Shown here in pieces: positions 28,239 through 64,000 of a stretch of 64,000 nucleotides of DNA. Where the stretch lies: contig OX637393.1 in the NCBI GenBank assembly GCA_951799425.1, positions 25,128,744 through 25,192,743 of the forward strand. The letters are read 5' to 3'. The DNA is from Ilex aquifolium (taxonomy: Eukaryota > Streptophyta > Magnoliopsida > Aquifoliales > Aquifoliaceae). A model generated the notes under the pieces. The model ran no database searches, was not told the DNA's origin, and saw nothing but the letters and a program-made list of their open reading frames with translations. The stretch's first letter is position 1. The number at the start of each line of letters is the position of its first letter. The translations under genes and the position numbers were made by a program.

Positions 28239-28352
28239 AGGCCCTTTTGAAGTACAAAGATCCAAGGAGTCCCACTGTCTCATGCATAATTGAAAACTTA
28301 TTGAGCAAGCTTTGCTTGAGCTTGGAGCAAGTGTCAATTTACTCCCGTATAG

Positions 28353-29960
28353 TGATTAACCCTAATTAATGCATAATTTAATTAAGTTAATAGGTCAATT
28401 GTGTTAGTTAAACAAAGTTAAACTAGTCAAAGTAAGTCAAATTAGGGTTAATGTGTGAATTAGGAATAATGCATTAATTATTGTTCTTTTCAGGGTTTTG
28501 TGCGTCAAAATTACTGGGGAGCCAATTGTGTCAAAGCTACAAATTATTGGAGAGCCAATTATCAAAGCTACAAACTATATGGTGCCAATTATTAAAGCAA
28601 AACAAAGGGGGATCAAAGTGAAATTAAAGAGCATCTTCTTGGGGCTTGTAAAGAGCATCTTCTTGGGGCTTGTAAAGGGCATCTTTTGGGACTTGTAAAT
28701 GACATCTTTTGGTTGCCTATAAATACCACCCCTTGGGACTTGTAAGAGAGAGATCTCTTTGGTTGTGGAAAACCCTCCAAAAGTAATTACTTTCTTGTAT
28801 TATTGCTTTTTTTTAATTGCTTTCTTCTAATTTAAGTATTGCCTTCTTTTATTGTAATTTATCTCTTTTAATTTCATGTCTAGCAGAAAGATAGATTACT
28901 TTTGGTTGTGGATCACCCTCCAAAAGTGGCTACTTTTCTTCTATTTTTAATATGTGTTTCATTCACTTCCGATGCTTGAGCTTATTTCTTCCCTTAGAAG
29001 AGTGAAACTCTTCCACTTTTCTAGCGCTTCGCCAAAGCTGTGAAAGGTGGAACGTGATTCACTCATTCTTTGTCGAAGATCGGCTCCTTGTTTATTGTAC
29101 CTTATCTTGTAACTTCTATACTTTGAGGAATGAGTATCACTCACTTTTCTAGCTTTACCAAAGCCATGAAGAGTGAGTAGTTTCTTATTCACTCTTCAGT
29201 GAGAGGTGATGGACATGTAGAAATTATCCGGAAGTTATATCTGTGCATTTTCGATTATGTTTAATGCTTTATATTCCCCTTGCTTATTGAATGATTGATT
29301 GCATCTAGCAAAGCTAGGGTACTTTGTATAATCAGGAGTTCTATCTATAACATAGATAACTCTTGCATAGAAAGACTCATCGATTCAAGGCAAGTACCCC
29401 GGCTAGATCTTCATGACTACCCTTAAATCTTCACCATTATTGTGCTTCAATTAAAGAATGGACTAGGAGCATTAATTTCATGATTGGAGGTCTTGTAGAA
29501 ACACTTGCTTGTTTGTAGATGGGTTAAGTCTCGGCACAGGCAATTCTTGTAAACTTCTAGGAAGACATCGGAATCATGTTCTTAATTCTCACAATCCACC
29601 TTTATCTTTCGATTAACCTGTCGTTGACATGGGGGTTAATTGAGTTATCAAACACAATTATAATAAATCGGATAATTAACTACACGTCCAAAGCTTTGAA
29701 CTAAAGAATGACTCTTTTATATTAAAGCTTATCTCACATTTTGTTTAGAAAACTCTCCTGGAAAAAATCTTATATTCTGTCCAGAAAGAATCCTGAACAC
29801 CACAATTTCAAATCTCAAAGGATACAATCAACTGGTCTCCACCACTGCTTACTTTGAAACACTAACAACAGCTCCCTGTGGATTCGACTCCGCACTCAAA
29901 CCGGATTATTACTACAGCTTGACCGCTTGCACTTGGGTGTACACATTTCGGATCAAGTCA
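28353..29960 (+). repeat. 5' LTR of E (1608 bp)
   Basis: Begins TGATTAACCC and ends GATCAAGTCA. Nearly the same as the 3' LTR by eye, except for scattered substitutions and one extra ~26-base unit (gcatcttcttggggcttgta doubled at about 28630-28685). cctataaataccacc at 28716 is a TATA-like box. Confidence 0.93.
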
Positions 29961-29984: not shown

Positions 29985-30087
29985 GCCATAAAAAGTGTTT
30001 GAAGGTAAAAGGTAAAAAGACATTTTTTTATGTATATTCTTTGGTTTACTGTGAATAATTTTGTTTTGTTTTATTTTCTTTATTTTT

Positions 30088-32078
30088 ATGTCTGAGGGCA
30101 CTCCTCACTATCAGAATTTGCCAGCAAAATCATTTGAGTCTGTGAATCAGCCTAAACCAAATTCACCTAAATCAGTAGCAGACTCCTGTGAGGGAAATAT
30201 GGTAAATAATGAAAGAAACGGAGAAGTCCCTATGAGAGAGAGGGAAGTACCTAACACTCGAACTTTGCGGGATTACCTAAATCCCACAAGAAATAGTGTC
30301 CCCTCTTATTTTTGTATTCCTTGAAAATGCTCCCCTCTTTACTGTAAAGTCGGGGATAGTGCAGCTGTTACCTGTTTTTCATGGATTGGATACAGAAAAT
30401 TCATATCTGCATATAAAAGATTTTGAGGAAGTATGTGGAACATTTCAAGGCAATTCTGAAATGGCCAAGATGAAACTTTTTTCATTCTCTTTAAGGGACA
30501 AAGCTAAACAATGGCTAAGTTTTTTAAAAGCTCTTTCAATACCTGACTGACAGGCATTACAGAATGAATTTTTCAGAAATTTTTTTCATCTACACCGCAC
30601 TAATGCACTAAAAAGACAGATCATGAATTTTTCGGTCGACGAAGGAGAAACATTTTACCAAAGTTGGGAGAGATTCAAAGATCTTCTCCAATCCTGCCCA
30701 CACCATGCTTTTGAGAATTGGACTTTGGTAGGATTTTTCTATGACTCCTTGCCCTCTAGACTACGCCAGTTCGTCGAAATGATGACTCAAGGAGAATTTA
30801 TGGAAAAAAGTCAGGAAGAGGCATTCGATTTTTTTGACACCATATCTGATAGTTCTTAGATGTGGGACTCAGCCTCCTCTACCACTGTTGAAGCCATACC
30901 ATCTCCTTCCCAAGGAGGTAAGTATGTCTTGAGAGATGATGATGACCTAAGAGCGAAAATGTCTACGTTGTCTCGAAAGCTTGAAGCATTAGAGATGAAG
31001 AAGGTCCATCAAGTTGAGGTTAGCTCTTCCACAGAACAAGTGTGTGAAATCTGTGCGCTGTGCGGTAACAGGACACCTTACTGGGGAGTGTCCCACCATC
31101 CCAGCATTCAAAGAGGTCTTGTTGGAACAAACAAATGCAGTTTCCAACTTCAACAAGCCTTACTCCAACCCATACTCTGAAACATATAATCCAGGGTGGC
31201 GGAACCACCCGAACTTCAGTTGGATGAACACACAATCAACGCCCATGAACCAACAACAAGGTTCATACCCACCAGCTCAAGGACCTCCCGCATATCAACC
31301 ATACCAATCACCACAAAAGAGGAGCCTTGAGGATACACTGAATCAGTTCATGCAAACCCAAATGAACTACAACACTCATTCCACACAGGCTTTGACAGAT
31401 TTCAAAACACAGACCACTCAATCTTTCGAGGATCTTAAAAGCCACATCCAAAAGTTGACCCAATCCATGGCCACACACGAAAAGGGCAAGTTCCCTGCCC
31501 AACCAAAGCAACCACAAGGCCAATTCCATGTGGGGAACCCTTCAACCACAGGAAACCCACAAGACCAAGCCCAAGTTGTCACTACACTAAGAAGTGGCAA
31601 GGTGATTGACAAGATCATCAGAGACATGCTCATTCCAAAGCCAAAACCTGTGTCAATCCCAGTCAACTCATCATTTGAGCCTAAACCAATTGAGACTGAA
31701 CTTGAAGCAGAACCTGAGCCTATGATTGAGCAAGAGCTAGAACCTTCTGAGGAAAGAGAACCTTCATGTTCCATTCCTGCTCCTTTTCCTCATAGACTCA
31801 AAACCAAACAGAAGTTGAAAAATCAACCTGAAATTTACGAGCTTTTTAAGCAAGTAAACATCAACATCCCACTTCTGGATACAATCAAACAAGTTCCGTC
31901 TTATGCCAAGCTTCTAAAAGACTTGTGCATAGTCAAGAGAAGCCAGAATGTCCAAAAAAGAGTCTTCCTAACAGAACAAGCCAGTGCCCTTCTTCAACAC
32001 AAAACCCTTCCAAAATACAAAGACCTAGGGTGTTCGACTGTGTCATGTGTCATGTGTCATTGGAAACTTCAGAATTGA
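30088..32078 (+). pseudogene. Athila E gag and linker (decayed)
   Basis: The likely start is ATG 30088 (MSEGTPHYQN), after a short leader. Blocks: TLRDYLNPTRNSVPS (30260), ENAPLFTVKSGIVQLLPVFHGL (30322), MNFSVDEGETFYQSWERFKDLLQ (30623), and a nucleocapsid knuckle CEIC..GHLTGEC around 31042-31090. A Gln/Pro-rich segment and an acidic PEPMIEQELEP region follow. Lesions: frameshift near 30310, stops at 30548 and 30857, frameshift near 31060, and a frameshift from a gtgtcat triplication near 32040-32062. The last part is a 354-codon open stretch, 31014-32078. Confidence 0.88.
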
Positions 32079-32520
32079 ACAAGCACTGTTAGAGCTTGGA
32101 GCCAGTGTTAATTTGCTACCTTATTCTGTCTACCAACAGTTGAGTTTGGGTGAACTCAAACCCACTTGTGTCACAATTCAGTTGGCCGATAGATCTGTCA
32201 AAACCCCTAGAGGCATTGTTGAAGATGTACTTGTCCAAGTTGACAACTTTGTCTTCCCTATTAACTTCATTGTTCTGGATACTCAGCCAGCAATACATTC
32301 GTAAAACCAAATTCCCATCATTCTTGGTAGACCTTTCTTAGAAACTTCCAATGCACTAATCAATTGCAGGAATGGAGTCATGAAATTAACTTTTGGGAAT
32401 ATGACTCTCGAACTAAATATTTTCAATATTGCTAAGCATCCAGAAGAAGACAAGGAAGAAGGGGAAATAAACTCCATTGAATCTTTGATACATGAACATC
32501 TGAATGACACATTCTATGAG
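32063..32520 (+). pseudogene. Athila E aspartic protease (decayed)
   Basis: IEQALLELGASVNLLPYSVYQQL places the active site as ELGAS where DLGAS is usual. Element D has the same ELGAS, so the change may be ancestral to this family. Then PIILGRPFLETSNALINC as the second half. A TAA at 32302-32304 and the upstream 7-base triplication separate it from gag. Confidence 0.85.
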
Positions 32521-33771
32521 AACCCTAGTGAATCTTCTCTGCTAGAGTTCATCTCATCTGGAACAACAAATGATGGCCCAAATCCACAAAGTTGCCCTAC
32601 TCATGCTGTTGAGACATGGGCCCCCAAATTCGAAGAGATTTCACCAAGTGGCACAAAGCCACTCTCATCAAGTATCAGGCCACCAAAGCCTGAATTGAAA
32701 CCTTTCCCATCTGACCTCAAATATGCATTCTTAGGAGATGATGAGTCATACCCAGTGGTAATTTCATCTAAGCTCACAGACTTACAAGAGTCTAAATTGA
32801 TCGAATTTGTTCAAAGTCATAAAAGCACCATTGGGTGGACCATCGCTGACTTGAAAGGTATAAGCCCGTTAATATGCAATCATGCTATATACCTTGAAGA
32901 AGGTTCAAAACCCTCTCGTCAAATACAACGACTAAACCCTCACATGAAGGAAGTTGTGAGAACTGAGGTACTCAAGCTCTTAGATGCAGGGATAATCTTC
33001 CCCATCTCTGATAGCAAGTGGGTTAGTCCAACCCAAGTTGTGCCCAAAAAGTCTGGGGTCACAGTGGTAAAAAATGATGCAAATGAACTAGTACCAACTC
33101 GAGTCATCATAGGATGGTGAATGTGTATTGACTATCAAAAACTCAATTTGGTCACTAGAAAATATCATTTTCCTCTTCCATTTCTTGACCAAGTCCTATA
33201 GAGAATTGCAAGCCACGCATTCTACTGTTTCCTAGATGGGTATTCTGGATACAATCAAATTGAGATAGAATTAGATGATCAGGAGAAAACAACCTTCACA
33301 TGCCCCTTTGACACTTTTGTATTCAAAAGGATGCCATTTGGACTTTGTAACGCTCCTGCAACATTCTAAAGGTGTATGCTAAGCTTGTTCAGTGACATGG
33401 TTGAAATTTTTTTGGAAGTATTCATGGATGACTTCTCTGTTTATGGTGACTTATTTGATTTGTGTCTGGCCAACCTAGAAAAGGTGCTAATCAGATGTAA
33501 GGAAGCCAATCTAGTGCTAAATTGGAAAAAATGCCATTTCATGGTAACGCAAGGCATTGTCCTTGGTCACATTGTGTCGTCTGAGGGTATAAAAGTTGAC
33601 AAGGCAAAAATAGATCTGATTGAAAATTTGCCTGCCCCTAAGACTGTAAAGGATGTCCGATCATTCCTAGGACATGCAGGTTTTTACAAGAGATTCATAA
33701 AAGACTTTAGTACCATAGCAAAACTCATGTGTCATCTTCTAAGTCAGGACATAATATTTGATTGGAAATAA
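32521..33771 (+). pseudogene. Athila E reverse transcriptase (decayed)
   Basis: The linker PPKPELKPFPSDLKYAFLG (32680) leads to LKGISPLICNHAIYLEEG (32850). RT blocks follow: LLDAGIIFPISDSKWVSPTQVVPKKSG (32980), CIDYQKLN (33124), FLDGYSGYNQI (33232), MPFGLCNAPATF (33331) and the catalytic VFMDDFSVYG at 33420-33449. Stops at 33118 (TGA, where Trp or Arg is expected), 33200, 33367 and 33769. Confidence 0.9.
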
Positions 33772-34230
33772 GCATGCCAGAAAGCCTTTGACAAGCTGAA
33801 AGACATGTTAATTTCTGCTCCAATAATGCAACCCCCTGACTGGACTCTTCCATTTGAATTGATGTGTGATGCAAGTGATTATGTTGTAGGTGCTGTGTTG
33901 GGACAAAGAAAAGATAAGAAACCTCATGTGATTTACTATGTAAACAAAACTTTGAATGATGCTCAAATGAATTATTCAACAACTGAAAAAGAATTGCTTG
34001 TTGTAGTTTTTGCTCTGGAAAAATTCCGTTCTTATCTTGTTGGTTCTTCTGTTACTGTATTCACTGACCATGCAGCCCTAAAATTCTTGCTCACAAAGAA
34101 GGACGTCAAGCCAAGAATCTTGAGATGGATACTCTATATCCAAGAGTTTGATCTTGTCATCAAAGACAAGAAAGGTGTCGAGAATGTGGTGGCAGATCAT
34201 CTGTCTAGATTAACATATGAATTTCGTGAA
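33772..34230 (+). pseudogene. Athila E RNase H
   Basis: Open from about 33772 to the integrase. ELMCDASDYVVGAVLGQ (33856) carries the first Asp, YYSTTEKELL-like text (33970) the Glu, and FTDHAALKFLL (34062) the third acidic residue. This stretch is uninterrupted and shares the 370-codon open frame 33805-34917. Confidence 0.9.
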
Positions 34231-34239
34231 GATGGACTG

Positions 34240-35620
34240 CCAATCAATGAGAAATTCCCCGATGAACAACTGTTCATGATTGATAAGACACCATGGTACG
34301 CGGTTATTGCTAACTTCCTTACTACTGGTATGTTCCCACCGTCCTTTACCATGATGGACAAAAAAAAAATTCTGAGGGAGGTTCGTAACTTCTTTTGGGA
34401 AAATCCCTACATATTCAAGTACTGTAAGGATCAAATCATAAGGCGTTGCATCCCCGCTCATGAAAGCAGCCAGGTAATAACATTTTGTCATTCTGAAGCA
34501 TGCGGTGACCATTTTTCATCAAGGAAAACCGCTGCAAAAATCCTGCAGCGTGGATTTTATTGGCCCACACTTTTCAAAGATGTCCATACCTTTTGTTTAA
34601 CTTGCGATAGATACCAAATGTTGGGAAGCATTTCTAAAAGAAACATGATGCCCTTAAACCCCATTCTGGTGATTGAAATTTTTGATTGTTGGGGCATCGA
34701 TTTTATGGGACCATTTCCCCCTTCCTTTGGCTATCTATACATTTTAGTGGCCGTAGACTATGTATCTAAATGGGTTGAAACATTTCCATGCCGAAACAAT
34801 GATCACCGCACAATGATCAAATTTTTAAAAGAAATTTTTTTATCCCGGTTTGGAATTTCGAGATCAATCATAAGTGATGGGGTGCTCATTTTTGCAATCG
34901 TCCATTCTGGAATTTAATGAGAAAATACTTGATTTTTCACAAAATTGTAACCCCTTATCACCCACAGACTAGTGGACAGGCTGAATTAGCTAATTGAGAG
35001 ATCAAATTAATTTTAGAAAAAATGGTAAATCCAGACCGCAAAGATTGGTCATTAAGACTAACTGATGCACTCTGGGCATATCGCACTACTTTCAAAACAA
35101 TTTTGGGCATGTCTCCTTATCGATTAGTCTATGGAAAACAATGTCACCTACATGTGGAATTGGAACATAGGGCATACTGGGCCATTAAAACAATGAATTT
35201 TGACCTGGACAAGGCCGGACTAGCAAGGAAACTTCAGATAAATGAATTAGAGGAATTGAGAAATAAAGCATATGAGAATGCTAAGATTGCGAAAACCAGG
35301 ATGAAAATTTTTCATGACAAGAACATTGTACGGAAGTCTTTTGAACCTTCTCAAAAAGTCCTATTGTTCAATTCAAGACTCCACCTCTTTCCTGGTAAGT
35401 TGAAGTCAAGATGGACTATGCCTTACATTGTCAAAAAGGTGTTTGGCCATGGAACAGTTGAAGTAGAAAACCCATCGAATGGTAATATCTTTACTGTTAA
35501 TGGTCAGCGGTTGAAACCATTTGTGGAGGACTTTGTTAAAAATGTGGACACCATTCTTTTGATGGAACCAGAATATCCCTCCGAGATTCGCGCCTGCCGA
35601 CACTCAAATGGATCGGGTCA
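34240..35620 (+). pseudogene. Athila E integrase (decayed)
   Basis: Zinc-binding region: His at 34459-34500 (HESSQVITFCHSEACGDHF) and the Cys pair CLTCDR near 34594. Core: D in FDCWGIDFMGP (34681), D in IISDG (34870) and E in SGQAELAN (34970). The region after ISDG is divergent, with a stop at 34915 and another at 34996. The C-terminal part (35022-35663) is open and has the [13 protein letters not shown] block at 35107. It would insert the DNA copy into chromatin. Confidence 0.88.
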
Positions 35621-35663
35621 GGAAAAATACATCCTGACCCGACCCGAGAGAACGCCTTTATGA

Positions 35664-36081
35664 GGCCCTCACCTTTTGTCTCCCTCTCATTCACCGTTGT
35701 TGGCCCCCCTTTCCTTTTTCTTTTTCTCTTTTCTTCTTCTTCTTCTTCTTCGTTGTTCTCTGTTCTCTGTAAAAAGAACCCACCCCCTGCAAATCCATGA
35801 CCATATACCCCGAAGACCCAGTCCTTTGTTTAATGATTTTCTTTATATGTTTGTATTTGTACATGGGTCTTCTTCTGCTATATGCACTTACGGGGACGGG
35901 TTTCCAGCCTAGCCGAAACCCTTATTTCGAAGAATGATTATTAATTTGGGTATTTTCTTTGTAGGCTTTGGCAGATGAACGAATCTCTACTTCTCCAACC
36001 CTAACTCCATTTTGCGGTTACTAGTAAATTCGAAACATTTGGGACAATGTTCAGTTTAGGTTGGGGGGGGTGTTGTGATCT
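35664..36081 (+). other. Start of the E pol-to-LTR interval
   Basis: No ORF with recognisable content. A (TTC)n run is at 35730-35750. The stretch 36050-36070, caatgttcagtttaggttgggg, looks like an internal polypurine-like site common in Athila elements after pol. LTR H interrupts at 36082. Confidence 0.6.
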
Positions 36082-36724
36082 TGGACGGCATTACATTCTA
36101 AAACATTCATATCATGAGAGCACTAATATAATTCCTTAAGAAATGAGACTCCATTTGTCATCCACAATATTTACAAAGTGATCCAAAAGAATAAGCCCAA
36201 ATTATGGCTATTACATCTCAAAAATTAATTAAAGTAGCACAGCGGAATAAACAAAGAAACTAGACGACACAATGTTCCAAAAGAATGTCCTAGTCTAGTA
36301 TAAAAGGAAAGGAGGTCGCTCTATGCGTCCACCTCGGGATCCACACTCCCGTCAAGTGGAGTCTCCCAAGTAGCGGGCTCCTCGACCCTTACGTCCTCCT
36401 CAAGCGGGTAATCTAAAAAATGTTAGCGGTAGGGGGTGAGCACGAAGCTCTGTAGAAAAATTCTCTCAAACCCAAACAAGGTTTAGAAAAGTATTTAAAA
36501 CGGTCGGTCTCATTTTTAACATAACATAGATACATAATTTCAAATAAAGCAGTGACATTTAAAAAGGATCTCAAGTTTATGTAAAAACATTACTTAAATG
36601 AATAAACGAACACCACATACAAATAATCACCATTAATTGCCATAAACAATCCCCAACAATTCTTTCGGTAGGTGGCATACTTTGTGGTAATCTCCACCCT
36701 CCTTTAGGTCTCCTTTGATTCTCA

Positions 36725-36945
36725 AGCATCCTTACCGGGAACCTCTTGAGAATGGATGAGCATCCTTACATGGAACCTCTCACCCATCACTACATTGTTT
36801 TCCAAGCATCCTTACTGGGAACCTCTTGGGTAGGGGTGAGCATCCTTACAAGGAACCTCTCACCAATCACTACATTGTTTCCCAAGCATCCTTAACGGGA
36901 ACCTCTTGGGAAGGGGTGAGCATCCTTACAAGGAACCTCTCACTC
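36725..36945. repeat. Tandem repeat in LTR H
   Basis: About two and a half copies of a unit of about 85 bases built from 'caagcatccttac.gggaacctcttg' followed by 'gagcatccttacaaggaacctctcac'. The two halves are themselves related. Confidence 0.85.
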
Positions 36946-37740
36946 ATGTGCATCACAAACAACCCAACCAAGCATACAATTCCAACATTTATCTCAATTT
37001 ACAATCATCTATCCAAAATCTCCAAAATATAACATGTAACAATTCCACAACCAACTAAGAAAAATACACGAGATCACAATAACATCATTTTTCTAACCAA
37101 CACAAAGCACTACGGTTTCGAGATCCATAATAAAGAAAGCATTTAGGAAAGAATTACATCACTCTCCAAAAATTAGGGTTTTAAAACTAGAAAAGAGATT
37201 TCATGGGTATTAAACCCTAACTTTGTTCAAAACATGTAATATTTGAAAAAAGCCTAAGAGATGATGATTCCATAGCATATATATACCATTGATAGCCAAA
37301 ACACACACACATATATATATATACACTAGCCTCAATGTAAGTGAATGAGAGAAAACCCCTACCTTGGTGTTCTTGAAATCTAGGGTTTGATCTTGAATCA
37401 CTCTTAAATCCTTTGTTTTTCCCTTTTGATCTTGTGTTTTCTCCTTCTTTATTCTTTTCTAAGACTCTCTCTAAGATTCCAAGAGGTGTGGGTAAGGGTG
37501 TAGTGAAAGTGTAGAAGAAGAGAGTAGAAGAATGGTGTTCTTGAGGAATTTCGGTTTTGATCTCTATAAGGGTAACTCTCTCAAGATTTTTGTGTTTTTC
37601 TCTCATTTTCTCTTCTCTTAGGGCTCTAAGATGTTTGGAGTGAGAGTGGGATGGAAGAATGGGGCAAATGAGGGCTTGAGGTGGTGTTTTAAACCCAAAA
37701 ATCCTGACTTTTTAACTGTTCAGGGAGTGTCAGAGAAAAT

Positions 37741-37801
37741 CGTACCGGTACCGTACCGTACCAGTACTCCAAAGCTACTGGAGTCGGGCGTACCGGTACG
37801 G
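37741..37801. repeat. cgtaccggtacg palindrome array in LTR H
   Basis: cgtaccggtaccgtaccgta, then a spacer, then gcgtaccggtacgg. The words are self-complementary around ACCGGT. Confidence 0.8.
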
Positions 37802-38454
37802 TTTGACAGATTTTTGCTCCTACTTCCAGGGCAGTTTTGACCCATTTAGAGGTCGAATTGGAAAATTTTCATGAGATACACTTTTGTAGACCTAGATGTC
37901 TAATATATACTTTACAAATTTCAGATCAATTGGATATAAGGATAAAAAGTTATGGCCAAAATACTAAGAAGTGTCCAAGATTTCTTTTTACCCAAATTCT
38001 TTCTAAGTGTGTTTTCACTCCGGAATACTTCCTAGCTTCCAATACGCCCCATATTACCTCTCCCAATGTTTTTCGACTTTCCGGATTCAATGGAGAACTT
38101 ATTTTGACCTAAAAATATTTAGAAACTTCCATAATCCCTCTTCTCAAATTTACACACCTTCGAAACTTAACTCCCCAATCAATTTGTATCTCTAGTTTTT
38201 GTTTTTATTCCTACCGTCACTACACATATCCCCATTTTTACCTCAATTATCTACTATATATCTATATACGTATATAAAAGAAAATGCGGGGTGTTACAGA
38301 TCTACAATTCCAGTTTGTTTTAGTTTCATATTTGCAATTCTATTTTTGCAGTATTTTTGCTTATATTTCATGATCATATCGAATGCAGCTTCAATCGTTT
38401 TTGTGACTGACAGACGTTAAAGAACCAAATAGTGAGCCTTAAAACTTAGAAAGC

Positions 38455-38865
38455 ATGGATGTTAAACTTTTTTGGTTTAGTCTAGGAGTTCTACGCACTT
38501 TTCCATCTGATGTGCATACTGTGATCATGAGAAAAGCAAGACTGGTAAGGAAGGCCGAAATCCAAGAAAAACAAGCGAAACCCCTCTGTAGCAGAAACAC
38601 CTTTGCCAAACGCCGTCGTGCCAAAAGGCTGGGTGCTTGTAAACAATGTAGCAAAGTCTTTCACGAGAAAAGATATAACCAGTATTCTGAACCAATTTTC
38701 GGTCGCGCACTCGATCGATTAGACTGGATAGTGAATGGGCTGAGTAAGGATTACCCTGGTACGCCATGTTGTTCCGGTATTTTGCTTAACCGGTTTGTGA
38801 GAGAGGAAATTGGAAGAGTCACTGGTTATTTGAATGACATAGACACAAGCGATGACTCAGATTAG
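38455..38865 (+). CDS. Betaflexivirus NABP-like ORF captured in Athila E (136 aa)
   Basis: Open from ATG 38455 to TAG 38863-38865. A hydrophobic N-terminus (residues 1-15) includes FPSDV at 16-20. It is Lys/Arg-rich from 26. A basic stretch KRRRAKR at 52-58 is followed by C62, C65 and H70 (CxxC-x4-H). A Cys pair is at 105-106 and the acidic Asp/Ser tail is at 128-136. This order is what is known of the small cysteine-rich nucleic-acid-binding proteins of betaflexiviruses (Pfam viral NABP type), RNA-binding proteins often linked to silencing suppression. It is not a standard Athila protein, which here would be env-like with membrane segments. It sits between integrase and the 3' polypurine tract, and is open although gag-pol is broken. 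An inner Met at 25 is an alternative start. Homology is recalled, not searched; a host gene or chance ORF remains possible. Confidence 0.5.
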   Translation: MDVKLFWFSLGVLRTFPSDVHTVIMRKARLVRKAEIQEKQAKPLCSRNTFAKRRRAKRLGACKQCSKVFHEKRYNQYSEPIFGRALDRLDWIVNGLSKDYPGTPCCSGILLNRFVREEIGRVTGYLNDIDTSDDSD

Positions 38866-40543
38866 ATTTTGATTAATAAATGACAAAGCTGTGGAAAAAT
38901 GTGTTTTGGGGATGAAGGTTAATGGTCCGAACGTTTTTTTTTTAAAAAGTGTAAATATTTTTTTTTTTTAGATGTACAAAGTCTTTTTGTTGAAATAAAG
39001 ATGTGGGCCGAGTAAGGAATGTCCTAAAATGTCAACCTATAGCGTGGGTAGGGACTTATCTTGAGACGCCATAGTTTTCCAAGTTCAATGGTATTTTCTT
39101 TATGCTTAAATGTCAAATGTACATTGGTATTTGTTATTCTTAAGGTACAGAATGACCAGACTCGAAAATAGAATTGATATATAATCGAAATTCTTTGAAA
39201 ACCTGACATAACCAGTGGAGATAACGAAGAATACCATGATAAGTTTTCGAGCCTTGCGATGCTTTTGAGAGAAAATCAACATTTACTCAAGTAAGGTTTT
39301 TCACTATCTATCTTTGAATAATCTCATTAAATTTGCTTTGATTGATGCAACTAAAGCAATCTATTGTCATATATGTTCATACGACACATACATATGCACA
39401 TACTTGAGAAAGGATTTTAGGCCATCTTTTGATTTAACTTCGAACCTTAACAATTTCTTTTACAAAATTATATCCCTAGTTAACCATGCTTGAGCCTTCA
39501 ATGAATGATTTATTTTTCGAAAAACTCATATGATAACCGAGCCACACGAAAATATACTTGACATACCTTGCTATCTAATTTTCTTGCACCCTATTATAAA
39601 TCAATATGACACAGAAATGCAAGAAAAATAGAAAATGGTGGCTACTGTTCAATAAAAGAAAAGATTGATGGAAACAACTGAAAGAGGAAAGAGACAGAAA
39701 AACAGGGAATTGCCAAGAAAGTGAAAAATGAGAAAAATGAAAGAAAGAAATACCATTTCTAGGCAAAAGATCGGAAGAGGTGTGCTACACTACATAAACA
39801 GATGATAGCTTTTTGAATACAATTGGCGTCATTTCGTTAACCACTGACCTTTGGCCACATTACAATCTATACAAAGCCCTAATTGATCTCAAGTCTGATG
39901 CATATGTGTGTTGTCAAACAAAAGTTGGGGTATGTTAAAAAGTATTTCTTTAATTGCATCAATATTCTTCCATGAGATTATGTCAAACATGATTAGTTTG
40001 TTTCCTTGGTTTTCACTCCCGTAATTATTGAGCATGTAAATTTACAATTATCCTTCTTCTAATTGCATGCTTTTGAGAGAAAAGTCACTATAATCGGAGA
40101 GAATTTTTGCTGAGAGATTTCTAAGAGAGGATTGTGAAATCAAAGCTATCCATGGAAGGTTGAAAAGAAGAGTTTTTGTTATATAATAACTCTTGTCGCT
40201 AGAATGATTATTCTTACTACATAGGAAATTTCAAATACCAATATAACAAGTATTTATTTTTGCATATAGTACGTACCAATGACAAAGAAGTGTTTTAAAA
40301 AAAAATAAAAAAATAACTAAAGGATGGGGTGTCTCAACGATCATGGTGCTAACTCATATACACATCTTTTTAACTGGAGTTTGTAGGTAGCTTCATTGGA
40401 AACCTTCACGAGACAAAACTCGTCCACTAGGGATCACCTAGGGGTTTAACGGCTTGTTGCATACGCTAAATGCAATCGTGTTATCTACGAAAATGATTTT
40501 ATTTTGTTCTGTTGTTATTTATTACTAGGGACTAGTAATGTTT
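38866..40543 (+). other. Remainder of the E pol-to-LTR interval
   Basis: No ORF above background and no env-like membrane protein. Text near 40420-40480 (ctagggatcacctaggggtttaacggc) is of the kind seen just before Athila 3' LTRs. A- and T-rich runs occur at 38940 and 40300. Confidence 0.6.
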
Positions 40544-40556
40544 AGGTTGGGGGGTG
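40544..40556 (+). other. Polypurine tract of E
   Basis: aggttggggggtg, directly before the 3' LTR start TGATTAACC at 40557. Confidence 0.8.
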
Positions 40557-42139
40557 TGATTAACCATAATTAATGCATAATTTAATTAAGTTAATAGGTC
40601 AATTGTGTTAGTAAAACAAAATTAAACTAGTCAAAATAAATCAAATTAGGGTTAGTGTGTAAATTAGGAATAATGCATTAATTATTATTTTTTTCAGGAT
40701 TTTTGTGTCAAAATTACTGGGGAGCCAATTGTGTCAAAGCTACAAATTACTGGGGAGCCAATTATCAAAGCTACAAACTATATGATGCCAATTATTAAAG
40801 CAAAACAAATGGGGATCAAAGTGGAATTAAAGATCATCTTCTTGGGGCTTGTAAATGGCATCTTTTGGGACTTGTAAATGACATCTTTTGGTTGCCTATA
40901 AATACCACCTCTTGGGACTTGTAAGAGGGAGATCTCTTTGGTTGTGGAAAACCCTCCAAAAATAATTGCTTTCTTGTATTATTGCTTTCTTTTAATTGAT
41001 TTCTTCTAATTTAAGTATTGCCTTCTTTTATTGTAATTTGTCTCTTTTAATTTCATGTCTAGCAGAAAGATAGATTACTTTTGGTTGTGGATCACCCTCC
41101 AAAAGTGACTACTTTTCTTCTATTTTTAATATGTGTTTCATTCATTTCCAATGTTTGAGCTTCTTTCTTCCCTTAGAAGAGTGAAACTCTTCCACTTTTC
41201 TAGCACTTCGCCAAAGCTGTGAAGGGTGTAACGTGATTCACTCATTCTTTGTCGAAGATCGGCTCCTTGTTTATTGTACCTTATCTTGTAACTTCTCTAC
41301 TTTGAGGAATGAGCATCACTCACTTTTCTAGTTTTACCAAAGCCATGAAGAGTGAGTAGTTTCTCATTCATTCTTCAGTGAGAGGTGATGGACGTGTAGA
41401 AATTATCCGGAAGTTATATCTGTGCATTTTCGATTATGCTGAATGCTTTATATTCCCCTTGCTTATTGAATGATTGATTGCATCTAGCAAAGTTAGGATA
41501 CTTTGTATAATCAGGAGTTCTTTCTATAACATAGATAACTCTTGCATAGAAAGACTCATCGATTCAAGGCAAGTACCCCGGCTAGATCTTCATGACTACC
41601 CTTCAATCTTCACCATTATTGTGCTTCAATTAAAGAATGGACTAGGAGCATTAATGTCATGATTGGAAGTCTTGTAGAAACACTTGCTTGTTTGTAGACG
41701 GGTTAAGTCTCGGCACAGGCAATTCATGTAAACTTCTAGGAAGACATCGGAATTATATTCTTAATTCTCACAATCCACCTTTATCTTCCGATTAACTTGC
41801 CGTTGACACGGGGGTTAATTGAGTTATCAAGCACAATTATAATAAATCGGATAATTAACTACACGTCTAAAGCCTTGAACTAAAGAGTGACTCTTTTATA
41901 TTAAAGCTTATCTCACATTTTGTTTAGAAAACTCTCCTGAAAAGAATCTTATATTCTGTCCAGAAAGAATCCTGAACACCAAAATTTTTAATCTCAAAGG
42001 ATAAAACCAACTGGTCTCCACCACTGCTTACTTTGAAACACTAATAACAGCTCCCTGTGGATTCGACTCCGGACTCAAACCGGATTATTACTACAGCTTG
42101 ACCGCCTGCACTTGGGTGTACACATTTCGGATCAAGTCA
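40557..42139 (+). repeat. 3' LTR of E (1583 bp)
   Basis: Same termini and order as the 5' LTR. Shorter by about 25 bases because the gcatcttcttggggcttgta unit is single. Ends GATCAAGTCA at 42139, followed by tatac and D's protease. Confidence 0.93.
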
Positions 42140-61254: not shown

Positions 61255-64000
61255 GGGTAATGCTATTGGGACCTAATTTTTAGACCTAAATAGGTGACCT
61301 GATGATGTGGCAGCTGAGGTGTCCTTACCAACTCAGCAAATTAAGCCACTTAATTTCTTAAAAAAAAAAAACTTAAAAAATCAACAACTTAAAAAAATTT
61401 GATTTCATCAAAAAAATCAGCCCTCTTTTCACATTCTCTCTCCCCGAACCAAGCACACTTTCTTCCCCAAAGCCCTAAAATTTCTCCTCCTCTTGAACCG
61501 CATGAACAACGAGCTTCTTCACCGGAAAAACCCACCTGAACGACGAGCCACAAGCAGTAAACCGATTCATTCTTCATATTTCTTCATAGCCACAAGTAGT
61601 AAACGACGAGCCACGAGCCACAAGCCACAAGCAGTAAACATCTTACGACGAGCCGTTCTCTTCCTTCTTCATCTCATTGTCCCGAACATCTGTCGAAATT
61701 GACTCCACCATAGTCGGCTCTACAGTACGTGAATTTCATTTTATTTATTTTCTTGATAGTAATTGGAGGTTGATTCAATTTGTTTTTTATTGTTTTATTT
61801 CTAATTATTTATTTTGATTTATATATATATACACAAACAAATGTTTGATTTATAGATTTGTCAACCGTCATTATAAATTTTTCACATCAGCTGGTTTTTC
61901 GAATTCATTAAATCAGCAGCAGCAGCTAGCTCAGTATTTTGTTCGACCATGGACTACTACTGTTCACGTAACTATTTAGTCAGTCTGCTACCCACCAAAT
62001 CTTGCTTTGTTCCGCAGACTTACATGGGTTGGCATCATTGATGCTCTTTGAATGGTTTAAAGAGAAGTTGCAAGCAAGATTTCTTTGGAAAAGCTACCCA
62101 TCACTTTATTTTTAAAGTACCCTCTTAAAGTTCTTTTATTATATAAGGAGCAATGTTTATGTCCTCCCCTACTCTCTTTATAATTTTGTTTTTTAATAAA
62201 ATTTGCCCTATATGGGTTTAACTTAATATAGTTTTGTTCTTTTATTATATATGTCAACCGCAAAAAAAAAAATCATTTCCTTTTGCTGGTTATTTTGGAG
62301 CTTAAATAAATTTCTTTTGTTATGGTGTTCAGGCATATTTTGCGTTAGACAAAATTCTGGTTAATCAACAAAGCACGTGTTGCAGTAAAATTTTATTACA
62401 ATGGAAGGTGAATCTTCAAGTAGTTGATAGAAGAAAATGTTGTGACTGAAATGATGAATGTAGTTGATGTAGACGAGCCTAAGGTTGGGATGATGTTCGA
62501 AAGTTATAAACAGTTGCTTGAGTATTACACGGGTTATGGTAAGCGGTTAGGGTTCCCAGTGAAGATAAGATCATCAACAAAAGGGGATGATGGTGAGTTG
62601 AAATACGTGACTATTGCTTGTTCTCGATCAGGCAAGTCAAAGTCCACTTCCAAAAATCCATTGAAGCCGCAACCAAGCATAAAAGTAGGTTGTAAGGCTA
62701 AGGTCCTAGCAATTTTGTGTGCAGATGGAAAGTGGCGACTGAACACTGTCATGCTTGATCATAACCATGAGTTGAGTCCAAGCAAAGCCCGATTTTTTCG
62801 ATGCAATCGAGTGATGAGACCACATGTGAAAAGGAAGCTTGAATTGAACGATCGAGCGGGAATTAGACTAAATAAAAATTTCACCTCGTTTGTAGTTGAA
62901 GCTGGGGGGCATGAAAATATCTCCTTTTTAGAGAAGGATTGTAGAAACTATATTGAGAAAATAAGGCGGTTACGGCTCGGAGAAGGAGATGCCTCTGCAA
63001 TACAAAAGTATTTCTTAAAGATGCAAGCTGAAAATGCAAATTTCTTTTATACAATGGATTTGGATGATGAGGGTTGGTTAAGGAATTTGTTTTGGGCTGA
63101 TGCGAGGAGTAGGGCAGCATATCAAGAATTTGGTGATGTTATTACATTTGATACTACATATTTGACAAATAAGTATGACATGCCCTTTGCTCCATTTGTA
63201 GGTGTTAATCATCACGGGCAATCGACTTTGCTTGGATGTGGTTTGATCTCCAGTGAAGACATAGAAACATTTACTTGGTTGTTTCAATCGTGGCTTGCAT
63301 GTATGTCTTGGAAAGCTTCACATGCCATAATTACCGATCAAGACAAAGCCATGCAAAAAGCAGTTGAGATTGTTTTTCCTAATGCTAAACATCGATGGTG
63401 CTTATGGCACATCATGAAGAAATTGCCTGAAAAGTGAGAGGTTATGAGCAGTATGAATCCATCAAATATTTCTTGCAAAGGGCCGTTTATGATTCATTAA
63501 GTTGTACTGAATTTGAAGAAAGTTGGAATGGAATGATTGAAAAGTATATGCTACATAATAATGATTGGCTGAGTGGGTTGTACAATGAGAGGCGTCGTTG
63601 GGTGCCGATCTTTGTGAAAAACATTTTTTGGGCGGGAATGTCTACCACACAACGAAGTGAGAGTATGAACTCATTCTTTGATGGCTATGTCAACTCTAAG
63701 ACTACCTTGAAACAATTTGTCGAACAATATGAAAATGCATTGAAAAGTAAGGTGGAAAAGGAGAGCCAGGAAGAATGTAAGTCTGTATCTTCGCAAGTCC
63801 CTTGTGTAACCCATTATAACATGGAGAAACAAGTTCAAAGAGTCTACACTATCTCAAAATTTAAGGAGTTCCAAAGCGAATTGACAGGGAAGATGTATTG
63901 TGATTTGACTGCAGTCAAAGTGGAAGGTTTGATTTCTGAATACGACGTATCTGAGGATATCATGATTGAGGAGAAAAGAAAGAGTGCAAATTTCAAGGTT
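61255..64000 (+). mobile_element. Mutator-like element with FAR1-type transposase (5' part)
   Basis: Starts gggtaatgctattgggac (61255), a wording typical of the ends of plant MULEs that carry FAR1-like transposases, followed by 'gatgatgtggcagctgaggtg'. The transposase reading frame begins at 62401 and runs past the window end. The right end and the target duplication are outside. 61255-62400 is non-coding leader, possibly with an intron. Confidence 0.6.
62401..64000 (+). pseudogene. FAR1/MULE transposase-like gene with two frameshifts, partial
   Basis: Likely start ATG 62401 (MEGESSS), then one base appears missing near 62421-62424 before LIEENVV. FAR1 DNA-binding domain: FESYKQLLEYYTGYGKRLGF (62499) to DHNHELSPSKARFF (62758), with the Cys and His of its zinc site (VGCKAK, HNHEL). 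MULE transposase domain: ITFDTTYLTNKYDMPFAPFV (63140), IITDQDKAM (63329), RWCLWHIMKKLPEK (63393). A missing base at about 63434-63436 makes a TGA stop; the other frame then continues RGYEQYESIKYFL to the window end. DDE residues D (FDTTY) and D (TDQD) are present. The C-terminal SWIM zinc finger would lie beyond 64000. A sequencing error at either site is possible. Confidence 0.8.

Follow-up and report, generated by a model that had tools for sequence, protein, structure and literature searches.

A betaflexivirus-type nucleic-acid-binding protein gene, probably captured and kept by a family of holly retrotransposons

Plant retrotransposons are repressed by small RNAs, which raises the question of how certain families nevertheless multiply. 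A stretch of 64,000 nucleotides from holly, Ilex aquifolium (contig OX637393.1; C3:25128744-25192743 in our numbering, and called the window below), contains a damaged long terminal repeat (LTR) retrotransposon, element E, which carries between pol and its 3' LTR a short open reading frame (ORF) whose product resembles the nucleic-acid-binding proteins (NABPs) of betaflexiviruses. Is this ORF a stray piece of virus, or a working part of the retrotransposon? A first-pass annotation made from the letters of the window alone had proposed that a viral gene was captured by the element or integrated into it, and that its retention in sibling copies would mark it as a cargo gene. Overall we consider it probable that a viral NABP gene was captured and has been kept as an accessory gene of the element. 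The ORF is the following:

38455..38865, + strand: NABP ORF of 136 codons, with a basic stretch and zinc finger mid-protein and an acidic tail

The frame is open from the ATG at 38455 to the stop codon at 38863-38865, and its product has the KRRRAKR basic stretch, the C62-x2-C65-x4-H70 motif and the acidic DTSDDSD tail that had been described for it. It lies, as annotated, between pol (the last ORF of which ends at 35663) and the 3' LTR (40556-42139), and is open although the gag-pol frames are broken in several places. The proposed comparison with Pfam gave a match of Viral_NABP (PF05515) to the window product above the cut-off (E 1.6e-5, 25.4 bits against 23), with Carla_C4 (PF01623) falling narrowly below it (20.8 against 20.9 bits). 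A protein search returned 11 relatives from short public contigs, 64-82% identical to the window product, and all 12 members of the alignment of these with the window product (A1) match PF05515 and PF01623 at E up to 0.01. The match above the cut-off, the near-miss and the 11 relatives place the ORF beyond chance. A profile search gave 27 matches, including the NABPs of apricot vein clearing associated virus, grapevine virus H and peach mosaic virus; the named viral NABPs are far less similar to the window product than the 11 relatives are, and none of the 27 matches carries a plant organism name. Residues R55, C62 and C65 are invariant across 34 element and virus proteins. Nothing in PHROGs matched the product, viral contigs scanned with either the window protein or A1 yielded pattern matches and zero relatives, and the two ORFs adjoining the gene (38196-38420 and 39269-39493) had no Pfam match at 0.1. 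Two AlphaFold runs were of low confidence (mean predicted local distance difference test scores of 56 and 65; predicted template-modelling scores of 0.37 and 0.36). Identity with the ribosomal proteins eL37/eL43 was rejected, the best E values of 0.02 (profile) and 0.33 (sequence) being non-significant.

The holly genome searched comprises 800,232,872 bases in 103 contigs. With the window NABP as query there were 4,090 first-look, unverified candidates, and the best 150, which were scored, all match it over 127 or more of the 136 residues, with 82-100% identity; by our own count 128 of them are free of internal stops. With the relative P0006 as query, 150 places (the best 150 of 4,089 candidates) scored 85-93%. 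The gene is therefore present in at least 150 confirmed copies, and in thousands as candidates. Twenty copies from the NABP list were taken as 9.9-kb stretches, and in every one the integrase of a Ty3/gypsy (Athila-type) element precedes the gene; LTR-like sequence was reached downstream in 17. Starting from the integrase instead (best 150 of 14,675 candidates, 20 places picked, 1.3 kb read downstream), the NABP gene was found downstream in 20/20, the frame staying open for 131 codons or more in 13; one of the 20 (L062) holds only the 5' third of the gene, followed by an interruption. The gene thus occupies the same place in both samples, as an additional ORF of an LTR element does in most copies, and the siblings show neither absence of the ORF nor random loss of its frame, so that the cargo-gene proposal stands. 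Some NABP copies follow one another at intervals of about 12.2 kb, the spacing that tandem elements with shared LTRs would show (C5:20385361, 20397527 and 20409691; C13:22162720 and 22174934; C8:28147124 and 28159328).

In some elements the gene is paired. Two of the five stretches of subfamily 2 (L031 and L033) contain a pair of NABP ORFs separated by 1.6-1.8 kb; the 5' ORF belongs to the window/P0005 type and the 3' ORF to the P0006/P0007 type. Twenty further copies were picked by the 3' gene alone, and the 5' gene was present upstream in 18, 13 of these having the full 136-codon frame. Tandem duplication has given two diverged NABP genes in such elements, with dS (synonymous divergence) of 0.53 and dN/dS (the ratio of nonsynonymous to synonymous divergence) of 0.33 for the L031 pair, and 1.03 and 0.17 for that of L033. 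P0005 and P0014 each come from a 2,941-base JGI contig, and presumably represent one and the same contig with the same tandem arrangement.

The first-pass annotation had also suggested a comparison of dN and dS among copies. All NABP ratios were computed over codons 1-120, the codons beyond being excluded for their variable tail. For 25 copies chosen by NABP similarity (the window, L004-L006, L008 and L009-L028) mean dN is 0.036 and mean dS 0.165. The pooled ratio of nonsynonymous to synonymous differences (pN/pS) is 0.241 (0.175-0.337 by a codon bootstrap, which ignores the relatedness of the copies), with off-frame controls of 0.849 and 0.793. The dN/dS ratio falls from 0.466 at dS below 0.1 to 0.114 at dS 0.3-0.4, which is the pattern expected under constraint in active elements and drift once they have inserted. 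The C-terminus of the integrase gave a pN/pS of 0.315 in 16 copies, 9/25 having been dropped for gaps, truncation or an incomplete stretch. Picking copies by NABP similarity lowers dN, and two samples were chosen otherwise. The 5' paralogues, picked blind through their 3' neighbours, gave 0.411 (0.274-0.604; off-frames 0.858 and 1.173; 15 copies), and the integrase-chosen copies 0.313 (0.211-0.460; off-frames 0.777 and 0.939; 14 usable copies); three of the 18 paralogues and six of the 20 integrase-chosen copies were left out of these ratios for gaps or truncation and yet counted for presence. The NABP frame is under purifying selection, and this is seen in all three sets. Its constant place after the integrase and its low in-frame pN/pS are the behaviour of a conserved accessory gene, and we are highly confident that it is one, kept in the retrotransposon by selection.

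The 20 flanked copies were sorted by us into three arrangements. Six are arranged like the window (type A). Three (type B; L013, L014 and L027) have reverse transcriptase and integrase just 67-72% identical to those of the window element, but NABP genes 92-93%, non-coding neighbours 84-93% and a stretch directly after pol 78-82% identical to the window. The NABP cassette is present on a second pol lineage, and the combination of a diverged pol with a similar cassette suggests that the cassette has been exchanged by recombination between element lineages. The remaining eleven (type C) have 1.6-4.3 kb of extra sequence 3' of the NABP gene, in which PF20167 (Transposase_32) scored above its cut-off at three of four scanned loci and below it at one; in L009, L023 and L024 a second accessory ORF with this domain follows the NABP gene.

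Where did the gene come from? In a second tree of 52 rows (P0015, P0021 and P0025 left out) the holly genes form one group with P0001-P0011 and P0014 (support 92/90), which P0012 and P0013 join next (95/88), followed by a group of apricot vein clearing associated virus with P0016-P0018 (97/87). Peach mosaic virus and grapevine virus H fall outside these groups. This tree is midpoint-rooted with long branches, and its bootstrap had not settled. P0012 and P0013, the sisters of the holly group, are more distant NABPs from public assemblies. Capture from a betaflexivirus, as first proposed, is the best reading, with the viral protein family in Pfam, the retention among siblings and the purifying selection in its support, and judging from the sequences we think it likely that the gene is viral and moved from virus to element. 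Viral RNA would probably have been copied into the element through template switching of the reverse transcriptase.

Four other explanations were weighed. An isolated endogenous viral element that happened to land in element E would fit the window taken alone, and has practically no standing once the genome is considered, being ruled out by the 150/150 genome matches and by the shared position in 20/20 and 20/20 copies. A viral fragment spread passively by hitch-hiking, with a low dN/dS that only reflects the picking of copies by protein similarity, gains something from the way the first 25 copies were picked and from the dN/dS of 0.47 among recent copies. A binomial bound, however, shows that a ratio of 0.72 would be expected even from the 150 lowest of 4,090 neutral copies, with 25 nonsynonymous changes against the 12.5 observed; the samples not picked by the tested gene stand at 0.31 and 0.41, with off-frames of 0.78-1.17, and the paralogues, at dS of 0.53 and 1.03, at 0.33 and 0.17. 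We regard such a passenger as very unlikely. Transfer in the other direction, with retrotransposons or a cellular source common to both as the donor to the betaflexiviruses, draws on the want of a sure root and on the large and diverse holly group. The gene is, however, found in several betaflexivirus genera among the names from the profile search, and is known more widely across them; among retrotransposons it was found only in this holly family, and no plant is named among the 27 profile matches. Virus-to-element transfer is the simpler reading and the reverse an improbable one. Several observations nevertheless weigh against a captured and selected viral gene. The ratio among recent pairs is about 0.4-0.6; 7/20 integrase-chosen copies and 5/18 blind-chosen 5' paralogues have broken or partial frames, which is expected of dead insertions and equally of elements with no need for the gene; the integrase sample lies near the window's pol (the best 150 of 14,675), and the gene may be absent from more distant ones; the best similarity to a named virus is a modest 57% identity over 39% of the protein; and the tree is rooted only at its midpoint, on long branches.

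The fourth alternative accepts a viral and selected gene and differs on its function. By analogy with its viral relatives the basic stretch and zinc finger may bind RNA and dampen RNA silencing of the element: the cysteine-rich protein of potato virus M is described as a suppressor of intracellular silencing and of its spread (PMC10219291), and a silencing suppressor of grapevine virus A figures in the title of another paper. An anti-silencing function is plausible, and we propose it tentatively. The protein could instead be an RNA chaperone or a packaging, nuclear-import or export factor for element RNA, nucleocapsid-like or Rev-like. The same basic stretch and finger suit this role, as does the weak eL37/eL43 likeness noted above, and a review suggests functions of this kind for the extra ORFs found in plant LTR elements (PMC7264820); against it, the best-studied viral relatives are described as silencing suppressors. 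A chaperone or export role is about as likely as the anti-silencing one, the two having the same look in sequence. It is no more than possible that this lineage acquired a suppressor from an RNA virus, that duplication and divergence of the gene followed, that it also reached another pol lineage, and that it served as counter-defence while the elements rose to hundreds or thousands of copies. If true, this is a retrotransposon armed with a viral suppressor. With a relative of viral silencing suppressors retained under selection, the family offers one directly testable answer to the question of how such elements multiply.

The features of element E in the window are as follows:

28352..29960, + strand: 5' LTR, with the flank TATAG immediately before TGATTAACC
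30061..32078, + strand: ORFs, remnants of the gag region (the gag ORF of sibling L026 matches Retrotrans_gag)
32047..35663, + strand: broken pol, with protease-like, reverse transcriptase, RNase H and integrase domains
36055..36069, + strand: polypurine tract-like motif TTTAGGTTGGGG, 3' of pol
36082..38298, - strand: nested solo LTR of another element, with GATCT flanks, outside the NABP cassette
38400..38454, + strand: conserved leader upstream of the ATG, with a candidate 3' splice site ending at 38413
38683..38685, + strand: codon 77 of the NABP ORF, TAT (Tyr), which is Cys in 11/11 A1 relatives
38866..40555, + strand: 3' internal region common to siblings, with a second polypurine tract at its end (40541)
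40556..42139, + strand: 3' LTR, with the flank TATAC after it

The order of gag followed by reverse transcriptase, RNase H and integrase, read from the window with the gag of sibling L026, is that of Ty3/gypsy elements; Athila was the label of the first-pass annotation and is used here provisionally. The LTR pair is 94.2% identical, with a Kimura two-parameter distance of 0.045, which at substitution rates of 7e-9 or 1.3e-8 per site per year corresponds to about 3.2 or 1.7 million years. The motif TTTAGGTTGGGG occurs twice, at 36055 after pol and at 40541 before the 3' LTR, so that the NABP cassette is enclosed by two such tracts. The 2.2-kb antisense solo LTR between pol and the NABP gene, which reads TGTAACACCCC... 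on the minus strand and has the 5-bp GATCT on both sides, is present in the window copy only, sibling L003 being without it. Rfam and tRNA scans of the window found nothing. Elsewhere in the window, at 62424-63437, is a 337-codon ORF with FAR1 DNA-binding and MULE transposase domains, either a FAR1-like gene or a Mutator-type transposase.

Over 21 rows, the last 66 alignment columns upstream of the ATG have 91.6% pairwise identity against 79.3% for the preceding 124. A segment ending in CAG lies 41 nt upstream of the window ATG; the CAG is kept in 18/21 rows (the exceptions being L015, L018 and L021), and AG is found at the candidate acceptor in 5/5 subfamily-2 copies. The NABP would then be translated from a spliced message, as for env-like genes.

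The window copy itself is a decaying relic. Through C77Y it is without a later conserved cysteine of the zinc finger, a change shared by one of 24 siblings (L004). It departs from A1 at 7/77 conserved columns, six of the seven changes being of the C-to-T/G-to-A type. S48N is found in 7/24 siblings and S82F in 11/24, and an argument for methylation-driven decay is weakened by their being so common. C77Y and R67K each recur once among the 24, and G46S, G66S and Y106C are private to the window. Five residues in all are private to the window in comparison with the siblings, three of them being of the C-to-T/G-to-A type by inspection of codons.

Searches of the open-access literature (exclusive of subscription journals and preprints), judged by titles and abstract openings, listed no report of an NABP in a retrotransposon, and a survey of 121 angiosperm genomes does not name one in its results section on additional domains of LTR elements (PMC9289625). 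The holly gene would make an RNA-virus gene a lasting, working part of an LTR retrotransposon, beyond a fossil in host DNA. It shares with betaflexivirus NABP and cysteine-rich proteins (PF05515, PF01623) its size and the basic stretch followed by a C-x2-C-x4-H finger, and its nearest named match is to apricot vein clearing associated virus, a Prunevirus. The viral gene, however, stands behind a coat protein gene, while an integrase precedes the holly gene in 20/20 copies, which makes it a member of the protein family and not a virus. The holly ORF is in sense orientation, between pol and the 3' LTR and in most copies, as are extra ORFs and env-like genes in plant LTR elements; the antisense ORFs described for such elements are without virus likeness, whereas the holly ORF belongs to a recognisable viral RNA-binding family (PMC7264820). 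The AlkB-type demethylase ORF of a Phalaenopsis Ty3/gypsy lineage is likewise an extra, RNA-acting gene fixed in plant gypsy elements, with a suggested role in host-element conflict, but is a cellular-type enzyme homologous to plant demethylases (PMC9289625). The tobamovirus-like helicase of insect R1 long interspersed nuclear elements is a plant-virus-like domain in a retroelement for which anti-silencing has been discussed, though R1 is a non-LTR element of insects and the domain a helicase (PMC4686597). A nodavirus-like element captured by a Bursaphelenchus retrotransposon also places RNA-virus sequence inside a retrotransposon, in a nematode and from another virus family (PMC5177903). Cucumber CsFRLS1 is betaflexivirus sequence in a plant genome, but is a piece of replicase with retrotransposon-like sequence nearby and is not carried by an element family (PMC3136472). 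Beside these systems the holly NABP is a retrotransposon accessory ORF of an unusual and, in our reading, viral origin.
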